Source: Planctomyces sp. SH-PL14 (GTDB taxonomy: Bacteria > Planctomycetota > Planctomycetia > Planctomycetales > Planctomycetaceae). From it: a stretch of DNA of 64,000 nt. The translations under genes were made by a program, and so were the position numbers. The stretch spans positions 5,040,001-5,104,000 of the forward strand of contig NZ_CP011270.1 of NCBI RefSeq assembly GCF_001610835.1, in the 5' to 3' direction. Positions 7,675 to 55,208 of this stretch are shown here, piece after piece. Position 1 is the first letter of the stretch; each line of letters begins with the position of its first letter. The notes beneath the pieces are model-generated. The model ran no database searches, was not told the DNA's origin, and saw only the letters and a program-made list of their open reading frames with translations.

Positions 7675-8012
7675 CCGGGTCCAGGGGCACCCTGGTCAGG
7701 GAGTGCAGAGGGGCCTGTGTTGTTTTTTCGGCCCTTTGCCCGCCGGAGGCCGTCTCGTCGAACACCATCGGATACCTTGTGTGTCCAAACGCGGACGACG
7801 TGTGGGATGCCCCCTCACCAACCCGCGGGGATTCCAGGGCGAGCGTGGAGTCCTCAACGCCGGTTCCACAAAGGGACGTCCGTTGTTGACCACGGTTCCT
7901 CATGGAAGCGCCTCCGGCGGCAAGGGGGCCCGTGTTGTGTCTTTGGCCCCTTGACCCCAGGCTGTCGTGGCACGTTGGGTTTGCATGAAGAACACTGCGC
8001 CGACCAGGACGT
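7675..8012 (+). repeat. Dispersed ~320-bp intergenic repeat, copy 2
   Basis: Full copy starting CCGGGTCCAGGGGCACCCTGG and ending near GCACGTTGGGTTTG...CCGACCAGGACG. Both terminal hairpins carry the T-rich loop (TGTTGTTTTTTC at the left, GTGTTGTGTCTTT at the right), unlike the GCAACG/GTGAGA loops of other copies. It sits between divergent genes (starts at 7463 and 8094) and may therefore overlap their promoters. Confidence 0.9.
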
Positions 8013-10344: not shown

Positions 10345-10360
10345 TTGAGCTCTTGCCGAA

Positions 10361-10680
10361 CCGGGGTCCAGGGGGCCACCCCTGGTGGGGGATGCAAGGG
10401 GGCGAAGCCCTCTTGCCCGCCGGAGGCCTGGCCGTCGAGAGATGTCTGAAGGAGGGCGTGTCCAAGCGCGGACGACGTGCCGGATGCCCCCACACCAACC
10501 CGCTGGGATTGCAAAGCGAGCGGGGAATCTTCAACGCCGGTACCACAAAACGGTCGCCCGTTGTGCACCACGGTTCCGCAGGGAGAATGCCTCCGGCGGC
10601 AAGGGGGTGAGACCCCCTTGACCCCAGGCTGCCGTAGCACGTTGGGTTTGAGCTGTGGGAGCCGCGCCGGCAAGGACGTT
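10361..10680 (+). repeat. Dispersed ~320-bp intergenic repeat, copy 3
   Basis: Full copy from CCGGGGTCCAGGGGG to CCGCGCCGGCAAGGACG. It begins 16 nt after the metW stop and ends 1 nt before the stop codon of the convergent response-regulator gene, so it is the entire intergenic region and any shared terminator must be within it. Confidence 0.92.
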
Positions 10681-14934: not shown

Positions 14935-15333
14935 CGTGCACCTGCAAAGAGGAATGAGGCGTCTCATGGGGAGACGCGGGAACGGCCGGCTTCGCAACGG
15001 TCCGCCGGCTTTCGTTCGCTCGCCGGGACCACAATGAAAGGTCCGTGCCAATCGGTTGCTGCCGCGGTCTGCGGCGTCGGAAACCGGCGGAGAGGGCCGT
15101 TCCGTCCCGCGCGATCTGCCCAATCGGATGTTGATGCCGTCGGATTGAGGACGGTTCGCGGGTGCGGTTGGGAGGGGCGGGGTGGATACGCCCGTTCGAA
15201 GGGGGTGAGGTCGATTGACGGAGATGCGCGGAGCGGAGGAGTGGCGCAGGTCGGTCGGCCGGTGCTGGTGGCTCGCCTGTTCGAAGAGTGGGACTACTGA
15301 CGCGCCGCCGTCCATCCCGATGCTCGAACCGCG
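14935..15333. other. Intergenic region without recognised gene
   Basis: About 400 nt upstream of the small secreted-protein gene and before repeat copy 4. It should contain the minus-strand promoter of that gene, but I see no confident -35/-10 pair and no protein-like frame. Confidence 0.4.
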
Positions 15334-15654
15334 TTCTTGCCGGCGCAGCATTGATTGCTCAAACCCAATATGCGACGGCCGCTGGGGTCAAGGGGGCCTC
15401 GCCCCCTTGCCGCCGGAGGCACTTCTATGAGGGGCCGTGGGACACAACGGATGTTCCCTTTGTGGTACCAGCATTGAGGACTCCCTCAACCTGCACCGCT
15501 CGCTTTGCAATCCCCGCGGGTTGGTATGGGGGCATACGGCACGTTGTCCGCGTTTGGACACGCGCTCCTTCAGACATCTCTCGACGGCCAGGCCTCCGGC
15601 GGGCAGAGGGGCGTTGCCCCTCTGCACTCCCCACCAGGGTCCCCCTGGACCCGG
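15334..15654 (-). repeat. Dispersed ~320-bp intergenic repeat, copy 4
   Basis: Full copy with the GGTCCAGGGG-type end at the right, GCAACG-type loop (GGGGCGTTGCCCCTC on the plus strand). It lies between divergent genes whose starts are at 14934 and 15787. Confidence 0.9.
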
Positions 15655-15786
15655 TTGGGGATCGCGCCCGCTTGTTGCCGCCAGGATCTCCGGATAGCGT
15701 GAATGACGTCGGGGCGCGCTCCTCTGCCCCGGTGATGAGGAACGTCGACGTCGCGGGCCATACCCGACGCCTGTGCTGAGGCCGCC

Positions 15787-20043: not shown

Positions 20044-20061
20044 AGCCGTCTCGAGCCACAT

Positions 20062-20369
20062 CCTTGCCGGCGCGGCGCTGCTAGCTCAAACCCAACGTGC
20101 GACGGCAGCCAGGGTCAAGGGGGTCTCACCCCCTTGCCGCCGGAGGCACTTCCATGAGGAACCGTTGTATGCAACGGATGTCCGCTTTGGGGAACCGGCG
20201 TTGAGACCTTTACGCTCGCTTTGCAGTCGCCGCGGGTTGGTGAGGGGGCATACGACACGGTGTCCGCGCTTGGACACATACTCCTTCTGACGACTCTCGA
20301 CGAGACGGCCTCCGGCGGGCAAGGGGCGTTGCCCCCTTGCATCCCCCACCAGGGTGCCCCTGGACCCGG
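20062..20369 (-). repeat. Dispersed ~320-bp intergenic repeat, copy 5
   Basis: Full copy, GGTCCAGGGG-type end at the right (CCAGGGTGCCCCTGGACCCGG on the plus strand). It starts 18 nt after the stop of the anti-sigma gene. One variant block (CATACTCCTTCTGACGACTC, then CGACGAGACGGCCTCC) differs from the majority CAGACATCTCTCGACGGCC, as in copies 2 and 7. Confidence 0.9.
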
Positions 20370-20474
20370 TTTACTCTCGCTGGCAATCATCCGAACGCCG
20401 TCACCCGATCCGAATTGCGAAGGGCCGCCCCGAGTCGTAGCCTGCTGGCATCCGAGGCGCTATCGGAGGTGGGC

Positions 20475-21785
20475 ATGATCAGTATCAAACGGTGGTGGAC
20501 TTGGGCGGGGGAGGTCTGGAACGACCCGCCCCGGCTGACCGGAATCCTCGGGGTCGCGGCCGGCCTGCGCCTGGCCTGGCTCAACTGGAAAATGTCGCTC
20601 GCCGGACGTTGGGGATGGGGCGAGATCCCGATGCTCGGCTGGTTCGCCGCACTCATCTGGATCGGCGGGGGGATCGCCCTCTACCGCCGTTCGAAGATCG
20701 CCAAGTGGCTCCTGAGCACGACGTTCACGCTCATGACGCTGTTCTACGGCTTCCTGCTCGTCCGGGCCGGTCGATACCCTCTGTCGCAGCTTCTTTTCCT
20801 GGCCGGCGGCATCTATGGGGTCTATCTGCTGTGGACGATGGACCTCAGCCCGCCGTCCGAAGAATCGGACGACGACGCGACCGGTCCTTCGATCGTTCTG
20901 TTGCGGTCGACGCCGCTCTATCTCGACTCCGCCATCCTGACCCGCGCGGCCTCGCGGGCCTTCGGCGCCGAGTGCTCCGACATGGGTGACGACGGCGAAG
21001 CGGAGTCCTCCGGCGACCTCTTCGTCGGCGGAAACATGCCGGTCTTCCTCTGCTTCTGCCGGCCCCACTCGCTCGCGGTTCACTCCATCGACGAGCCTCT
21101 GGATGACCACGAGAGCGTCGCGGCCTCGATTCGGGAGCCGCGGGCCAGGAAGGCCGTCGAGGCGCACAAGGCGTGGATCGCGATCACGTCGATGGACGAC
21201 ACTCCGGACGATCCCGCGGCCGTGTACCGCGCCTGCGGCCGGCTCGCGGCGGAGCTGTACGACGAAGAGTGCCTGGGGGTCCTCCTGCCGCAGTTCACCG
21301 CCGTGTACTCCGTGGAGCCCGGGACCGAGGCGAAGCTGCGGAGCGACGATCCGGTCGCCGCGATCCGCGGCCGCGACGCTGATCCGATTCTGCTCGTCGA
21401 CGAGGACGATCCGCTCATGGTGGCGGCGATGCAGGAGGCCAAGCGGCGGTGGCCCGAGTTCGTCGAGGTGTTTGAAGAGGTGGGGGAGGGAGAACGGCCC
21501 CCGTGCTTCGTCAAAGTCCCGTTCAAGACTCCGAAGCATCCGGAGTTCATGTGGCTGCGGGTCACGGCGATGGAGGGGGACTCGGTCTTCGGTGTTCTCG
21601 ACAGCGATCCGGGGATGGCGGTTGGGGTCAAGGCGGGGGACCGGGTCCGCAAGCCGGTCGCCGATGTCTGTGACTGGATCATTGTTCAGGGCGGGGCGAT
21701 GACGGGTGGTTTTACGGCGGAGGCGATGAAGAAGATCGTCGAGCGGGACTCGGCGTCGTCGAACGAGGAACGCCGGAAGGAATAG
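20475..21785 (+). CDS. Membrane protein with C-terminal DUF2314-like domain
   Basis: 436 residues from ATG 20475, which has GGAGGT 4 nt upstream; the frame continues upstream into repeat copy 5, which is not coding. Four membrane segments lie within residues ~20-130 (GILGVAAGLRLAWL, WFAALIWIGGGIALY, LSTTFTLMTLFYGFLLV, LLFLAGGIYGVYLLW). An acidic cytoplasmic part follows, and residues ~340-420 match the DUF2314 pattern (EFMWLRVTAMEGDSVFGVLD, VKAGDRVRKPVADVCDWIIV). The function of DUF2314 is unknown. The gene appears monocistronic. Confidence 0.78.
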   Translation: MISIKRWWTWAGEVWNDPPRLTGILGVAAGLRLAWLNWKMSLAGRWGWGEIPMLGWFAALIWIGGGIALYRRSKIAKWLLSTTFTLMTLFYGFLLVRAGRYPLSQLLFLAGGIYGVYLLWTMDLSPPSEESDDDATGPSIVLLRSTPLYLDSAILTRAASRAFGAECSDMGDDGEAESSGDLFVGGNMPVFLCFCRPHSLAVHSIDEPLDDHESVAASIREPRARKAVEAHKAWIAITSMDDTPDDPAAVYRACGRLAAELYDEECLGVLLPQFTAVYSVEPGTEAKLRSDDPVAAIRGRDADPILLVDEDDPLMVAAMQEAKRRWPEFVEVFEEVGEGERPPCFVKVPFKTPKHPEFMWLRVTAMEGDSVFGVLDSDPGMAVGVKAGDRVRKPVADVCDWIIVQGGAMTGGFTAEAMKKIVERDSASSNEERRKE

Positions 21786-21950
21786 TCCCCGGCCACCCGC
21801 TTCTCTTCCGTTTGCCTTCAGAAGCGTTCGGGCGCCGTGACTGTCAAGAGGGGACGGCGCGACCGTTCCTCGCCGCCTCTCTTCAGTGGAAGGAGTCTTC
21901 GTTAGCCTTTGCCCGTCGGCAAACTCTTCAGCACGTCAGTGAGGACGGCC

Positions 21951-22253
21951 ATGAAGACGGCGAGTCTTGTCATCGCGTGGACGCAAAACCGGCATGAGAT
22001 GGACAACCTGCTGGAGTTGGGGGCCAGCTGGGGAATTGACGATGAGCTATGGGCCTCGAAACGTGAGCACAAGGGCGTTCCATTTCTGACTCTGTCATTG
22101 CCGGAGGGGGACGAGCGCCGTCGCCGCTTCATCATGCGACTGCGTCAGGAACCCGGATTATGGCGAGTTGAGTTCAGGCCGCATGTTCCTTACTGGCAGA
22201 CGGGTGACGAGCAGTTTCTTCGTCGTCGCGGGGCCCGTCACGCGATCCGGTAG
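21951..22253 (+). CDS. Small hypothetical protein
   Basis: 100 residues from ATG 21951 (GAGG about 7 nt upstream). Soluble, Arg- and Trp-rich C-terminus, no motif recognised (MKTASLVIAWTQNRHEMDNL at the N-terminus). Base composition is slightly less GC-rich than the flanks. Confidence that it is real is moderate. Confidence 0.5.
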   Translation: MKTASLVIAWTQNRHEMDNLLELGASWGIDDELWASKREHKGVPFLTLSLPEGDERRRRFIMRLRQEPGLWRVEFRPHVPYWQTGDEQFLRRRGARHAIR

Positions 22254-22323
22254 GCAGGTCTCTCCTCCGCGCAGTCACCGATTCATGAAATCCGAAACTC
22301 GCAAAGATTCTCTCCAGAAGTTG

Positions 22324-22352
22324 TTGACACTATACAGACCTGTCTGTATCTT
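22324..22352 (+). promoter_or_regulatory. tetR-type promoter with embedded operator; probably leaderless transcript
   Basis: -35 TTGACA (22324-22329), 17-nt spacer, -10 TATCTT (22347-22352). The palindrome ATACAGAC-CT-GTCTGTAT (22332-22349) fills the spacer and overlaps the -10, an ideal position for repression. Transcription would start about 7 nt past the -10, i.e. at or within a base or two of the regulator's ATG at 22359. Confidence 0.85.
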
Positions 22353-22358
22353 CGGGCC

Positions 22359-22940
22359 ATGGCCACCAAGACCTCCTCCTCCGAAGCCCGCCAGCGTCTC
22401 ATCGAGACGGCCGACCGGCTCTTCTACCGGGACGGGTTCCGCAGCGTCGGGATCGACAAGATCATCGCCGAGGCGGGGGTGGCCAAGATGACGCTGTACT
22501 CCCACTTCCCCTCGAAGGACGACCTCCTCCTGGCGGTCCTGCAGTATCGCGAGCAGCTTGTGGCCGAGTTCTTCCAGGCCGCGATGACGCGGCATGCCAA
22601 GGCCGGCAAGAGCCCGCTCGACCCCTTCTTCGCCGCCCTCAAGGATTGGCTGGAGTCCCCCGCCTTCCGCGGGTGCGCCTTCATCAACGCGACCGTCGAG
22701 CTGGCCAATCCGGAGCATCCGGGAGCCGAATACTGCCGGTCGCAGCGGGAGCGGTTCAACGGGATGCTGAAGAGCCTGATCGCCGAATCGATCGGATCGA
22801 AGTCGACCCGGCTCCTGCCGGCGATCTCGCTCCTGGTCGAAGGAGCGATCGTCACCGCCCAGATGCATCAGGACCCCAAGGCGGCCGATGTCGCCCGGGA
22901 CGCCGCTCGCGTGCTCATGGAGCAGGCCGCGAAGAACTGA
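22359..22940 (+). CDS. TetR/AcrR-family transcriptional repressor
   Basis: 193 residues. Residues ~8-58 are the TetR helix-turn-helix domain (RLIETADRLFYRDGFRSVGI, AGVAKMTLYSHFPSKDDLL). The C-terminal ligand-binding domain contains FRGCAFINATVEL, as in regulators of drug or small-molecule response. It is very likely autoregulated: a palindromic operator sits within its own promoter, and a second copy of the core lies before the hydrolase gene 64 nt downstream. No Shine-Dalgarno sequence precedes ATG 22359, in agreement with a leaderless mRNA. Inducer unknown. Confidence 0.92.
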   Translation: MATKTSSSEARQRLIETADRLFYRDGFRSVGIDKIIAEAGVAKMTLYSHFPSKDDLLLAVLQYREQLVAEFFQAAMTRHAKAGKSPLDPFFAALKDWLESPAFRGCAFINATVELANPEHPGAEYCRSQRERFNGMLKSLIAESIGSKSTRLLPAISLLVEGAIVTAQMHQDPKAADVARDAARVLMEQAAKN

Positions 22941-22954
22941 TCGAGTGTTCATTT

Positions 22955-22984
22955 TTGACCAAGCAAGACAGACCTGTCTGTATT
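22955..22984 (+). promoter_or_regulatory. Second TetR operator and promoter before the hydrolase gene
   Basis: ACAGAC-CT-GTCTGT (22968-22981) repeats the core of the upstream operator. It is flanked by -35-like TTGACC (22955-22960) and -10-like TGTATT (22979-22984, spacing 18); an alternative -10 is TATTAA at 22981. The hydrolase start codon is 20 nt further on, with its own Shine-Dalgarno sequence GGAGGA. Confidence 0.8.
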
Positions 22985-23003
22985 AACCGCGGAGGACAAT
23001 GAG

Positions 23004-23906
23004 ATGACACACGCCGCCCCGATCAACGAACCCTCGCTCGCCACGATCCCGGAGGTGACGCACCGCTCGGTCGATGTCGACGGCTTGCGGGTCTTCTACC
23101 GCGAGGCCGGCCCCGCGGATGCCCCGGTGATCCTGCTGCTGCACGGTTTTCCGACGTCGTCCCACATGTTCCGCCGGCTGATGCCGCTCCTGGCCGGCTC
23201 GTTCCGCCTCGTCGCGCCGGACCTCCCGGGCTTCGGGTTCACGGACCAGCCGAGCCGCGACACGTTCGCCTACACCTTCGACAACCTGGCCCGGACGATC
23301 GAACGGTTTACAGCCGTGGTCGGACTGACGCGGTACGCCCTGTATGTCTTCGACTATGGCGCACCGGTCGGGTTCCGCCTCGCGATGGCCCAGCCGAAGG
23401 GGGTGACGGCGATCATCTCGCAGAACGGCAACGCTTACGCCGAAGGGCTGAGCGACGCCTGGGACCCGATCCAGCGGTACTGGCGCGAGCCAACCGCCGC
23501 CCATCGCGAGGCCCTCCGCTCGCTGTTGACTCTCGAGGCGACCCGGTGGCAGTATGTCCACGGCGTCCCGGACGAATCGCTCGTCGCTCCGGAAACATGG
23601 ACTCTCGACTGGGCCCTGCTGCAGCGGCCCGACAACGACGAGATCCAGCTCGACCTGTTCCGCGACTACGCGAAGAATGTCGCCCTCTATCCCGCATTCC
23701 AGGCCCACCTTGCGATTCATCGTCCGCCGACGCTCGCGATCTGGGGACGTAACGACCCGTTCTTTCTCCCGGCCGGAGCGGAGGCCTACCGCCTCCACAA
23801 CCCGGGCGCGGAAGTCCGCCTCCTCGACACGGGCCACTTCGCCCTGGAGACCCACGCCGTCGAGATCGCCGGAGCGATCCGGACGTTCCTGAGCCGTTCG
23901 CTCTGA
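23004..23906 (+). CDS. Alpha/beta hydrolase with Asp nucleophile (haloalkane dehalogenase/epoxide hydrolase-like)
   Basis: 300 residues, strong Shine-Dalgarno sequence GGAGGA 7 nt before ATG. The oxyanion motif is HGFP (47-50). The nucleophile elbow VFDYGAP places Asp at residue 117 where lipases have Ser, which points to haloalkane dehalogenase or epoxide hydrolase chemistry through an ester intermediate. The candidate acid is D251 (GRNDPFF) and the general base H278 (DTGHFALE). No signal peptide; cytoplasmic. It is preceded by a copy of the TetR operator, so expression should be induced by the regulator's ligand, possibly the substrate. Substrate not determinable. Confidence 0.85.
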   Translation: MTHAAPINEPSLATIPEVTHRSVDVDGLRVFYREAGPADAPVILLLHGFPTSSHMFRRLMPLLAGSFRLVAPDLPGFGFTDQPSRDTFAYTFDNLARTIERFTAVVGLTRYALYVFDYGAPVGFRLAMAQPKGVTAIISQNGNAYAEGLSDAWDPIQRYWREPTAAHREALRSLLTLEATRWQYVHGVPDESLVAPETWTLDWALLQRPDNDEIQLDLFRDYAKNVALYPAFQAHLAIHRPPTLAIWGRNDPFFLPAGAEAYRLHNPGAEVRLLDTGHFALETHAVEIAGAIRTFLSRSL

Positions 23907-23974
23907 GTTCACGAGTCCATCGTTCAATCCAGTCCCTGCTGACAACCTTCTCGATTGACCCAAGGAGACCTCTC

Positions 23975-24460
23975 ATGTTCACGTTCTTCCTCGTCGTCCA
24001 TGTCGCCATCAGCCTGGTTGGGATCGCCGCCGGTTTCGTCGCGGCCTATGGCTTCGTCACGGCGCAGCGGCTCGACCGCTGGCAGTCGCTGTTCCTGAAC
24101 ACCACGATCGCTACGAGCCTCACCGGCTTCCTGCTCCCCGCCGACCGGATCCTCCCCTCGCATATCCTGGCGGTCCTCTCGCTGATCGTCCTGGCGGTCG
24201 CGGTCTACGCCCGGTCGGCCCGGCAGATGCAAGGGGGATGGCGGAGCACCTACGTCGTGACGGCCCTGGTCGCCCAGTACTTCAACGTCTTCGTGCTGGT
24301 GGTCCAGCTGTTCCAGAAGGTTCCGGCTCTCAAGGCTCTGGCTCCCACGCAGACGGAGGCGCCGTTCGCCATCGCCCAGCTCACTGTGGTCGTCGCCTTC
24401 GTGCTCCTGGGTATCGCGTCCGTGACCCGGTTCCGCCCGATCGCCGTTGTCGCCCGCTGA
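23975..24460 (+). CDS. Four-TM membrane protein of unknown function
   Basis: 161 residues, AAGGAGA about 6 nt before ATG 23975. Four hydrophobic helices: FLVVHVAISLVGIAAGFVAA, TTIATSLTGFLLP, ILAVLSLIVLAVAVYA and IAQLTVVVAFVLLGIAS. It follows the hydrolase gene by 68 nt on the same strand and is probably in the TetR-controlled unit. It could aid export or import of the hydrolase substrate, but this is inference only. Confidence 0.75.
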   Translation: MFTFFLVVHVAISLVGIAAGFVAAYGFVTAQRLDRWQSLFLNTTIATSLTGFLLPADRILPSHILAVLSLIVLAVAVYARSARQMQGGWRSTYVVTALVAQYFNVFVLVVQLFQKVPALKALAPTQTEAPFAIAQLTVVVAFVLLGIASVTRFRPIAVVAR

Positions 24461-24639
24461 TGCTCCCTCCAAACGATGTTGCGTCCCGCCCCGCGAACCC
24501 GCGGGGCGTTCGCATTGGGGGGGGGGAAGAGAACTGGACGGGGCCCGTGGCCACGGCTCGGGCGACAGTCGAATCGGCCTGTCCGGGCACCTCAGTTGCA
24601 CTCATGCTCCTTCGCCGGAACTGCGGAGGAGAGCGACCA

Positions 24640-24870
24640 ATGTGCATACGGCTCATCAAGATCCTGACCCAGGTCACCACGGAATCGCCTGTGGGCCGGC
24701 CGGCGTTTGCGGCCCATCTCCGTCGCATCTTCGATCAGCTGAATGAGAATCGGGATTCCGGCCCGGAGGCTTCGCCGGAGATCCGCCCGCGTTCACAGGA
24801 TCTCCTCGTGGAACTTGCGGCGATCGAAGAGGCCCTGACGGGAGTTCGGTCGCCGGTGCTCTTGCCGTGA
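24640..24870 (+). CDS. Small hypothetical protein, 76 aa
   Basis: ATG 24640 is preceded by GGAGGAGAG at 8 nt spacing, which argues for translation. The protein begins MCIRLIKILTQVTTESPVG and is helical and charged; the C-terminal part (QDLLVELAAIEEALTG) is amphipathic. Its stop lies 41 nt before the next small gene. Not recognised. Confidence 0.5.
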   Translation: MCIRLIKILTQVTTESPVGRPAFAAHLRRIFDQLNENRDSGPEASPEIRPRSQDLLVELAAIEEALTGVRSPVLLP

Positions 24871-27676: not shown

Positions 27677-27990
27677 CCGGGGTCCAGGGGGTCACCCCTG
27701 GTGGGGGATGCAAGGGGGCAACGCCCTCTTGCCCGCCGGAGGCCCTCTCGTCGAGAGATGTCTGAAGGAGCCCGTGTCCAAACGCGGACACCGTGTCGGA
27801 TGCCCCCACATCAACCCGCGGGGATTGCAAGGCGAGCGGTGAGTCCTCAACGCCGGTCCCACAAAGGGGACGTCCGTTGTGTCCCACGGTTCCTCATGGA
27901 AGTGCCTCCGGCGGCAAGGGGGCGTGGCCCCCTTGACCCCAGGCTGCCGTAGCACGTTGGGTTTGAGCTATGGGAGTCGTGCCGGCGAGA
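27677..27990 (+). repeat. Dispersed ~320-bp intergenic repeat, copy 6
   Basis: Full copy from CCGGGGTCCAGGGGGTCACC to GTCGTGCCGGCGAGAG. It starts 13 nt after the DUF2934 gene's stop and ends 3 nt before the stop codon of ctaF, filling the gap between convergent genes. Confidence 0.92.
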
Positions 27991-42325: not shown

Positions 42326-42650
42326 CCGGGTCCAGGGGGACCCTGGTGGGGAGTGCAGAGGGGCCTGTGTTGTTTTCTTGGCCCTTTGCCCGCCCGAGGC
42401 CGTCTCGTCGGAAACCATCGGAAGGATTGCGTGTCCAAGCGCGGACGACGTATCGGATGCCCCCTCACCAATCCGCCGGGATTCCAGAGCGAACGGCGAG
42501 GTCTTAACGCCGGTTCCACAAAGCGGACGTCCGTTGCTTACAACGGGTCCTCATGGAAGTGCCTCCGGCGGCAAGGGGGCGTGGCCCCCTTGACCCCAAC
42601 CTGCCGTGGCACATTGGGTTTGAGCAAAGACGCTGTGCCGGCAAGGACGG
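42326..42650 (+). repeat. Dispersed ~320-bp intergenic repeat, copy 7
   Basis: Full copy of the T-rich-loop variant, from CCGGGTCCAGGGGGACCCTGG to CTGTGCCGGCAAGGACG. It starts 13 nt after the stop of the plus-strand gene and ends 9 nt before the stop codon of the convergent autotransporter gene. Confidence 0.92.
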
Positions 42651-45423: not shown

Positions 45424-45687
45424 GGGGTCAAGGGGGCCACGCCCCCTTGCCGCCGGAGGCACTTCCATGAGGAACCTCGGTAAGCAACGGACGTCCGCTT
45501 TGTGGTGCCGGCGTCGAGGACTCACCGTTCGCCTTGGCGTCCCCGTGTGTTGACGTGAGGGCATCCGACGCCGTGTCCGCGCTTGGACGCGTGCTCCTTC
45601 AGATATCTCTCGACGGCCAGGCCTCCGGCGGGCATGTGGGCTTCGCCCCCCTGCACCCCCCACCAGGGGTGGCCCCCTGGACCCCGG
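45424..45687 (-). repeat. Dispersed repeat, copy 8 (left end truncated)
   Basis: Starts inside the GGGGTCAAGGGGGCCACGCC hairpin, so the outer ~50 nt with CAAACCCAACGTGCGACG are missing; the right end (CCCCCTGGACCCCGG) is intact. It lies between two minus-strand genes, upstream of the autotransporter start (45248). Confidence 0.9.
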
Positions 45688-45720
45688 TTGGACTGGCTCG
45701 AAGTTGGTGTTCTGCCAACG

Positions 45721-46449: not shown

Positions 46450-46671
46450 CTCTCTCGTTCTCCTGACTGCCGGGACGCCTTGGCCCGGAACTGGACGCCT
46501 CCCGCGAACAAAGGACTGGCGTTCAAAACAATTCACATCCGTTCGCAACGGTTGAAATGCTAGAGAAGTCCTGGGCGAGGGGGAAGACCGCGCGGCGTCC
46601 GCCCACCAAACCGGGTGCGTTCGCTGGATAGCGGTTTGGTAGTGGGGCGGTTTGATCCATTGCGCAAGTGA

Positions 46672-46989
46672 ACCGGGGTCCAGGGGCTCGCCCCTGGTGG
46701 GGGATGCAAGGGGGCAACGCCCCTTTGCCCGCCGGAGGCCTGGCCGTCGCGAGATGTCTGAAGGAGTCTGTGTCCAATCGCGGACATCATGCCGTATGCC
46801 CCCTCACCAACCAGCCGCGTCTTCAGGACGAGTAGTGAGTCCTCGACGCCGGCACCACAAAGCGGACGTCCGTTGCTTGCCACGGTTCCTCATGGAAGTG
46901 CCTCCGGCGGCAAGGGGTTGCCCCCTTGACCCCGGCTGCCGTGGCACGATGGGTTTGAGGTAACAGAGCCGCGCCGGCAAGGACGTGGT
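46672..46989 (+). repeat. Dispersed ~320-bp intergenic repeat, copy 9
   Basis: Full copy from ACCGGGGTCCAGGGG to GCGCCGGCAAGGACG, with a small internal deletion next to the right-end hairpin (AAGGGGTTGCCCCCTTGACC). It lies between the cysC start and the rpoZ terminator. Confidence 0.9.
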
Positions 46990-47020
46990 TCAAAACACCG
47001 GGATCTGCCCGCCGCAAAAA

Positions 47021-49182: not shown

Positions 49183-49283
49183 GTTCCGGGCGGAGCGAGG
49201 GGATGGGGACCGGCGGCCGGGCCACCGATCGAGGCGAGCGGCATGCTATCGAGATTCGCGAGTCGCCGCCGCATCAAACGCGT

Positions 49284-49592
49284 CCTTGCCGGCACGACTC
49301 CGATAGCTCAAACCCAACGTGCGACGGCAGCCGGGGTCAAGGGGGTCTCACCCCCTTGCCGCCGGAGGCACTTCCATGAGGAACCGTGGTAAGCAACGGA
49401 CGTCCCCTTTGTGGGACCCGCGTTGAGGACTCCACACTCGCGTTGCACTCCCCGCGGGTCGGTGAGGGGGCATACGACGCGATGTCCGCGCTTGGACACT
49501 CACTCTTTCAGACATCTCTCGACGGCCAGGCCTCCGGCGGGCAAAGGGGCGTTGCCCCTCTGCACTCCCCACCAGGGTGCCCCTGGACCCGG
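49284..49592 (-). repeat. Dispersed ~320-bp intergenic repeat, copy 10
   Basis: Full copy, GGTCCAGGGG-type end on the right (CAGGGTGCCCCTGGACCCGG). About 75 nt further on, 49669-49702 repeats both end motifs in miniature (CCCAGCGTGCGACGG joined to GGTCCAGCGGGACCCTGG), as if a second copy had been reduced to its two ends. Confidence 0.9.
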
Positions 49593-49706
49593 TCGATGAG
49601 CAGCGATTGCTCGTTCCATCGAAAGCTCGAACACCGCCCCCGCCCGAACGGACTCCGCCACCTCAATCCCAGCGTGCGACGGCCACCCGGTCCAGCGGGA
49701 CCCTGG

Positions 49707-54979: not shown

Positions 54980-55005
54980 CGACAGCGACCGGAAAGCCTC
55001 TTTAA

Positions 55006-55208
55006 ACCGGGTCCAGGGGCACCCTGGTGGGGAGTGCAGAGGGGGCCTAGGTTGTGTTCTTGGGCCCTTTGCCCGCCGGAGGCCTGGCCGTCGAGAGATG
55101 TCTGAAGGAAGGTGTGTCCAAGCGCGGACGCCGTGCTGTATGCCCCCTCACCAACCCGTGGTGATTGCGGAGCAAACGGTGCGGGGTTGAGGGCGTCCTC
55201 AACGTGCG
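55006..55208 (+). repeat. Dispersed repeat, copy 11 (right half missing)
   Basis: T-rich-loop variant beginning ACCGGGTCCAGGGGCACC, 26 nt after the kinase stop. It follows the family up to the TCCTCAACG block and then breaks off; a nested palindrome begins a few nt later, and the missing half is not found after it. Confidence 0.85.

Follow-up and report, generated by a model that had tools for sequence, protein, structure and literature searches.

Twin palindromes at a TetR-family repressor and hydrolase locus of Planctomyces sp. SH-PL14 point to a modular detoxification regulon

Introduction

What is the role of two almost identical palindromes, one in front of a TetR-family repressor gene (tetR) and one between this gene and that of an alpha/beta hydrolase? 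We addressed this question in a stretch of 64,000 nucleotides from Planctomyces sp. SH-PL14 (NZ_CP011270.1, positions 5,040,001 to 5,104,000), hereafter the window, which belongs to a genome of one closed contig of 8,442,773 bases (8.44 Mb). The original prediction, made from the window alone, saw in the palindromes a shared operator through which the repressor controls itself and the hydrolase. Judging from sequence comparison, the repressor is most likely an autoregulated protein similar to NemR, AcuR and CifR, in charge of a modular detoxification regulon that is reduced in the window to the hydrolase. The best explanation as a whole, to which we give a probability of roughly 0.8, would be a self-repressing TetR dimer that is released by electrophiles or oxidants and controls the hydrolase, with a constant repressor and modular targets. 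Comparison with relatives establishes the sites, their conservation and placement, the exchange of target genes and the existence of unlinked sites.

Results

The description of the locus and its positions proved correct when the sequence was re-read. The repressor gene (22359..22940, forward strand) encodes 193 residues with TetR_N and TetR_C_13 domains, as seen from its open reading frame, Pfam and a structure model. In front of it, a promoter scan and the sequence place a -35 element TTGACA (22324..22329, forward), and the scan a -10 element TATCTT (22347..22352, forward); this pair is the sole promoter-like match in 21700-24700. Pattern searches locate operator 1, ATACAGAC-CT-GTCTGTAT (that is, ATACAGACCTGTCTGTAT; 22332..22349, no strand), and operator 2, ACAGAC-CT-GTCTGT (ACAGACCTGTCTGT; 22968..22981, no strand), the latter 27 nucleotides past the tetR stop. 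Operator 1 fills the spacer of 17 base pairs (bp) between the two promoter elements, as had been proposed, and also covers the first three bases of the -10 element. The 16-mer ACAGACCTGTCTGTAT is common to both operators. Behind operator 2 follow a Shine-Dalgarno sequence GGAGG (22991..22995, forward, read from the sequence) and the hydrolase gene (23004..23906, forward, 300 residues).

The twin palindromes are real. The 14-mer ACAGACCTGTCTGT has exactly two copies in the 8.44-Mb genome, both at this locus, with none in a reversed control; a chance origin was rejected on the two exact copies against the approximately 0.03 expected genome-wide from the base composition of the window. When up to three mismatches are allowed, the window gives six matches, four of them being operators 1 and 2 read on both strands, which is close to chance (mean of 3.4 in shuffled windows, with 13/100 reaching 6), so the case is carried by exactness and conservation. 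Similarly, the genome has 13 matches to the 16-mer with up to three mismatches, compared to 17 in the reversed control, and no additional targets in this genome can be claimed from such weak matches. A role of the palindromes as terminator was also rejected, since their placement over the promoter is fixed in relatives and the terminator scan is negative; the hairpin would need its inner pair opened, leaving a short A/T-rich stem.

Of 170 family genomes screened at the protein level, 39 have a tetR relative with E <= 1e-25. Thirty-three of these, tallied by hand, are close (E <= 4e-43), and the six weaker ones are counted among the 137 other genomes. ACAGACNNGTCTGT occurs in every one of the 33 genomes with a close tetR, twice or more in 27 of them, compared with 28 of the 137 others (twice or more in 5; Fisher p 1e-18 for one or more).

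Placement is equally constant among the 50 distinct tetR loci that we compared (L046-L075 and L106-L135, where L072 and L130 are one locus). An operator is found 5' of tetR in 47, and in 46 of these its first base lies 25 or 26 nucleotides before the ATG. The loci without this site are L124, the cyanobacterial L134 and L072/L130, whose contig starts partway through the operator. The promoter is kept around the operator: TTGA is found 9-10 nucleotides 5' of it in 40 of the 47, and the -10 element reads TATANT in 38. A second operator lies 3' of the tetR stop in 45/50 loci, the exceptions being L113, L057, L062, L134 and L135, the last one cut by a contig end.

For sequence logos, 46 first sites and 44 second sites were chosen with the AGAC/GTCT pattern (AGACNNGTCT), so AGAC and GTCT are fixed in them by selection. 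The outer AC and GT, which fall outside of the selection pattern in all loci but L114, hardly vary either. At site 1 the two central bases are mostly AG (A in 33/46, G in 40/46), and at site 2 they are mostly CT (C in 37/44, T in 38/44), meaning that the second site tends to be the first one in reverse orientation. The “identical cores” of the original prediction, with CT at both centres, hold for the window, which is in a minority here, while relatives mostly have AG and then CT. One locus, L114, has an extra inverted repeat AGAGACTCGTCTCT at the end of tetR (1057), a normal second operator at 1091 and a third ACAGACCTGTCTGT at 1303 (region 1057-1316).

A Shine-Dalgarno-like motif was found in 1/47 of the tetR upstream regions with a site, against 51/63 target genes: 18/19 for AhpD, 7/8 for DUF1348, 18/23 for PNPOx, 3/8 for the hydrolase, 3/3 for isochorismatase and 2/2 for YdhR (loci L106-L135, matches with 45% identity or more, taking the start codon closest to the alignment). 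Given the spacing between promoter and ATG, transcription of tetR would begin at or next to the ATG, which predicts a leaderless messenger. This reading is based on that spacing and on the missing Shine-Dalgarno motif in relatives.

We then consider the genes behind the operator, counted within the fetched flanks of 28 loci (L106-L133) with families assigned by Pfam (the scores of the YdhR-like protein and of one AhpD-like protein are under the curated cut-off). The most common is a PNPOx-domain gene (24/28), followed by an AhpD-like gene (23/28), a hydrolase of the window type (9/28; in L109 it lies 5' of tetR, on the opposite strand), DUF1348 (8/28), isochorismatase (3/28) and a YdhR-like gene (2/28). 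Behind the second operator the gene may be AhpD-like, isochorismatase, YdhR-like or the hydrolase, often together with PNPOx or DUF1348. Some loci have a third operator 5' of another module; L107, for example, has the order operator, tetR, operator, isochorismatase, hydrolase, operator, AhpD, DUF1348. The hydrolase stands directly behind operator 2, as in the window, in L122, L123, L131 and plasmid pOJF2_1 of Aquisphaera giovannonii, where the repressor is 64% and the hydrolase 59% identical to those of the window and a PNPOx gene comes next.

A regulon composed of repressor and hydrolase, as first proposed, fits the window, while in relatives it is wider and takes in AhpD-like, PNPOx, DUF1348, isochorismatase and YdhR genes. 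No PNPOx or AhpD homologue was found in the window genome at E 1e-3, in a protein search without a parallel positive control, so the regulon looks shrunk there to the hydrolase and perhaps a membrane protein. This hydrophobic protein of 161 residues with four transmembrane segments (23975..24460, forward; open reading frame and homologue search) is possibly co-transcribed with the hydrolase; the terminator scan detected no terminator between the two genes, nor 3' of tetR. Its suggested role in the pathway finds no support in conservation, with a homologue in just 3/148 other genomes of the phylum, or in linkage, as the two strong homologues have no regulon gene within approximately 1.5 kilobases on either side.

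In the genomes with a close tetR, 11 sites lie away from the tetR hit: five before DUF1348, two before AhpD-like genes and four in long frames. The first five come from five genomes of one genus (g3), which is probably Gimesia, judging from the similarity of the DNA 5' of its tetR to that in the Gimesia bin L133. In all five, the ATG of DUF1348 comes 47-48 nucleotides after the first base of the site, which lies megabases away from tetR in G410, G411 and G238 and on another contig in G350 and G415. Other genomes have DUF1348 linked to tetR; where it is unlinked, the operator tags it, and so predicts membership in the regulon without linkage. The sites on G422 contig 319 and G513 contig 47 are 5' of AhpD-like and PNPOx genes, next to a tetR match that is partial or weak. 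Together, conservation and unlinked sites argue strongly for the shared operator and the autoregulated repressor.

The repressor falls within the TetR/AcrR family by its TetR_N match (56.3 bits against a Pfam cut-off of 24), and its AlphaFold2 model has nine helices (predicted local distance difference test score 92.7). Residue Cys106 (codon at 22674..22676, forward) is a putative sensor thiol. It is invariant in 17/17 family sequences, in an alignment drawn from 30 tetR loci, and in 31/31 of a set partly selected on an RGC motif, so only the first count is free of that selection. An hhalign alignment, whose match ends at residue 119, places it on Cys106 of Escherichia coli NemR. The thiol switch of NemR uses Cys106 and a lysine (Lys175).

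Alternatively, the repressor could sense a non-reactive ligand, namely a compound that the hydrolase consumes or produces, bound in the pocket typical of TetR proteins, with a structural role for Cys106. Most TetR proteins bind ligands non-covalently, and Cys106 is kept even in homologues without the regulon. AcuR answers acrylate as co-inducer (PMC3017554). Against a non-reactive ligand stands the match to Cys106 of NemR; moreover, a constant repressor and operator with varying targets are easier to reconcile with a general stress signal than with a single substrate. We hold this alternative to be doubtful, although well within reach.

The hydrolase was aligned with 13 homologues of at least 45% identity over at least 250 aligned residues (L119, at 28%, was left out). 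Asp117, proposed as nucleophile, is supported in that role and is invariant in 14/14 sequences, as are His278, Asp251, the HGFP motif (H47-G-F-P50) and Tyr118. Haloalkane dehalogenases bind the halide through the Asn of an HGNP motif and the Trp after the nucleophile. In 14/14 sequences Phe49 and Tyr118 replace these two residues, so we do not call the enzyme a dehalogenase, and the haloalkane substrate of the original prediction loses its support. The NCBIfam dehalogenase models also score under their cut-offs (e.g. 98.2 against 241). The structure model is confident, and the 50 solved matches listed in a fold search are mostly haloalkane dehalogenases and engineered forms of them (template modelling score 0.72-0.79), with the Cif-like Cfl2 (7jqz) at rank 4 (0.77). 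Such matches cannot decide the chemistry of the modelled enzyme.

An epoxide hydrolase is possible, given that the H-G-X-P motif and the Asp-His-Asp/Glu triad of such enzymes are present (H47-G-F-P50, D117, H278, D251). The circuit could then be of the CifR/Cif type, with an epoxide as inducer and epoxides opened by the hydrolase. In Pseudomonas aeruginosa, CifR is a TetR repressor with two binding sites that is released by epoxides and accompanies the Asp-type epoxide hydrolase Cif (PMC8244358). Besides the triad and motif, the fold match to Cfl2, although amid dehalogenases, favours this circuit. On the other hand, the hydrolase is near tetR in just 9/28 loci within the fetched flanks, the neighbour of the nucleophile is Tyr and not Trp, and the lid Tyr/His pair is not identified in the window enzyme; tyrosines Y145, Y159, Y222 and Y229 are invariant in the 14 hydrolases. 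An epoxide circuit seems unlikely to us.

Operator 2 was expected in the promoter of the hydrolase gene. The palindrome is indeed 5' of the gene, while the promoter would be non-canonical, and the scan of 21700-24700 found none there. A weak -35-like TTGACC (22955..22960, forward), seen in the sequence and missed by the scan, needs a spacer of 18-20 bp to reach TGTATT/TATTAA. Site 2 might then have no promoter of its own and instead stop transcription that runs on from the tetR promoter, as a roadblock or an auxiliary operator, which the missing promoter and the missing terminator 3' of tetR would allow. In relatives, the DNA 5' of site 2 retains just a T-rich tract and, at non-standard spacing, a loose TTGNCA-like element. 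However, five genomes have unlinked sites of the same kind 5' of DUF1348, with T-rich DNA before them; a promoter probably accompanies the site in those genomes, and we find a pure roadblock improbable.

Stray sites were followed in 13 of the 28 genomes that have a site and no close tetR (G398, G399, G404, G406, G423, G424, G431, G438, G439, G451, G456, G315 and G462). Contig 580 of G438 is a fragment of the regulon (isochorismatase, site, AhpD, DUF1348, PNPOx), the sole such case among the 13. In G398, G399, G456, G315 and G462 the site is inside an open frame of 647-989 codons, longer than all frames over 52 sites in L106-L133 (76-524 codons); frame length decides nothing for the remaining ones. 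A stretch of approximately 70 bases around a ACAGACTGGTCTGT site is common to G399 contig 279:51-64 (L216) and G439 contig 85:6200-6213 (L103), in opposite orientation, in two genera and without a close tetR; it may belong to another repeat.

That a different regulator binds the palindromes, or that they are chance, draws on these stray sites in 28/137 genomes, yet it is very improbable given the 0.03 copies expected in the genome, the placement fixed in 46/47 relatives with a site and the co-occurrence of site and close tetR in 33/33 genomes.

More distant homologues (52 loci, L134-L185) were searched for AGAC-N2-GTCT or AGAC-N6-GTCT within 260 nucleotides 5' of tetR. An upstream operator is present in 26/31 loci with target genes, some of whose PNPOx matches are just 27-31% identical (L134, L144, L158, L176), against 6/21 loci without them; after shuffling with base composition kept, 7/1,040 upstream regions have a site. 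The N6 form occurs in this set, and targets are often divergent from tetR. Four loci (L153, L159, L166 and L185) have two AGAC-N6-GTCT operators 28-44 bp apart 5' of tetR, so two sites per regulon recur in another layout. Neither an upstream site nor targets were found in 14 Nostoc-like loci (L136-L143, L145, L146, L148-L151) at 40-42% identity.

Layout labels assigned by hand to a tree of 31 repressors give the tandem clade to which the window belongs a single origin (100/99 support). This clade includes bins labelled Vicinamibacteraceae, Wallbacteria and Obscuribacterales, although bin labels can be wrong. A phage search found no relatives on phages.

Apart from the regulon, the window holds a dispersed repeat of approximately 300 bp at 11 places, in both orientations. 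The copy at ~20050-20375 is 76-87% identical to those at 567-824, 7675-7983, 10359-10679, 15323-15656, 27680-27989, 42326-42647, 45425-45689, 46667-46991, 49283-49593 and 55003-55168. A genome search gave 1,190 first-look candidates, of which 40 were scored, all being strong matches. If most of the candidates are real, the copy number would be remarkable for a bacterial genome.

Discussion

We propose that the product of 22359-22940, as a TetR-family dimer, binds both palindromes. At site 1 it would cover the -35 and -10 elements of its own leaderless promoter and repress itself, and at site 2 it would block the entry or passage of RNA polymerase 5' of the hydrolase gene. Release would come from a reactive electrophile or oxidant whose probable point of action is Cys106 or its vicinity; the hydrolase would then be made, perhaps with the downstream membrane protein as passenger. 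The repressor would be the constant part of a modular regulon, in which AhpD-like, PNPOx, DUF1348, isochorismatase, YdhR-like and hydrolase genes are exchanged and groups of targets are tagged by the same operator. Binding by the repressor, its release, the leaderless messenger, sensing by Cys106 and the class of the inducer are what we infer from the comparisons above.

Several points weigh against this scheme. DNA binding and expression are read from compared sequences. Operator 2 has no clear promoter in the window, and TTGA is found within 30 nucleotides 5' of site 2 in just 9/45 relatives. The four sites in long frames (G411, G458, G509 and G511; 546-1000 codons), three of which have a GC centre, are probably chance, so not every pattern match is an operator. 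As for the sensor, column 174, where the partner lysine would be expected, is K in just 5/17 and 3/31 sequences, although the column is approximate as hhalign stops at 119. Cys106 is also present in two cyanobacterial homologues (L136, L146) without operator or targets. Finally, other thiol-switched TetR proteins, such as DitR (PMC9342713) and RcrR (PMC9600549), use other cysteines.

Among known systems, NemR of E. coli, the electrophile and hypochlorite repressor of nemRA-gloA, is like the window repressor in its TetR_N and TetR_C_13 domains, the aligned Cys106 and its fold (Z score 17.1). It has TAGACCGACTGGTCTA just 5' of its own ATG, with the AGAC/GTCT half-sites of the window set four bases further apart: its operator is AGAC-N6-GTCT, while the window and its clade have N2. 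NemR differs further in its low identity (14-18%) and in the partner lysine, which is apparently not conserved. We did not see nemA among the target genes, with no search aimed at it. A thiol:sulfenamide switch of NemR is mentioned in PMC9600549.

AcuR of Rhodobacter sphaeroides is an autoregulated TetR repressor, encoded by the first gene of its operon with a leaderless messenger. Its operator, TAATAGAC-n6-GTCTATTA, overlaps the promoter, and its targets have Shine-Dalgarno sites (PMC3017554). The window locus resembles it in the operator over the promoter and in the Shine-Dalgarno sites at targets, and would also share its autoregulation and leaderless messenger. AcuR differs in the n6 spacing, in its targets acuI and dddL and in having no internal promoters. 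On the NCBIfam AcuR equivalog the window repressor scores 37.8, under the cut-off of 247.

CifR/Cif and cfl2R/cfl2 of Burkholderia also pair a TetR gene with an adjacent Asp-type alpha/beta hydrolase. The cfl genes share direction with their TetR gene, as in the window, while CifR and cif are divergent (PMC8244358). The fold match of CifR to the window repressor has a Z score of ~15 at 12% identity. AltR of Pantoea (PMC13178969) and DitR of Stenotrophomonas (PMC9342713) are cysteine-switched TetR repressors, AltR being autoregulated. They use other cysteines (Cys100; Cys92 and Cys127, respectively) and other targets, and the AltR operator, CAATCTAC-N6-GTAGATTG, is different. The nearest solved structure is SCO4454 (3g7r), with a Z score of 21.0, a root-mean-square deviation of 2.1 over 183 residues and 32% identity; it has the FRGCAF motif, as does the window repressor.

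By analogy, then, the mechanism would have precedents in AcuR, CifR/Cif, AltR, DitR and RcrR (PMC9600549). Each part works as in known TetR circuits, and it is the breadth and the exchange of targets that are unusual. We found no description of the regulon in the literature by operator sequence, gene set, leaderless TetR, CifR or NemR, in searches that scarcely covered subscription papers. Tentatively, this may be an undescribed electrophile-stress regulon present across Planctomycetota and, with shifted spacing (AGAC-N6-GTCT beside N2), in Pseudomonadota, Verrucomicrobiota and some Cyanobacteria. Repressor and operator, joined in the window clade by the leaderless promoter, would stay constant, with operators serving as tags behind which detoxification genes are swapped. 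With AG in front of tetR and CT in front of the targets, the mirrored centres may set how strongly or in which order the genes are derepressed.

The presence of the operator before varied detoxification-type genes in many bacteria suggests a response to chemical stress. With a defined operator and a repressor with a candidate sensor cysteine, the pair of palindromes becomes a testable regulon. DUF1348, PNPOx-like, AhpD-like and YdhR-like proteins and the hydrolase, whose function is unclear, would be expected to work on chemicals of one kind, and the regulon may help to find out what DUF1348 does and how planctomycetes respond to stress.

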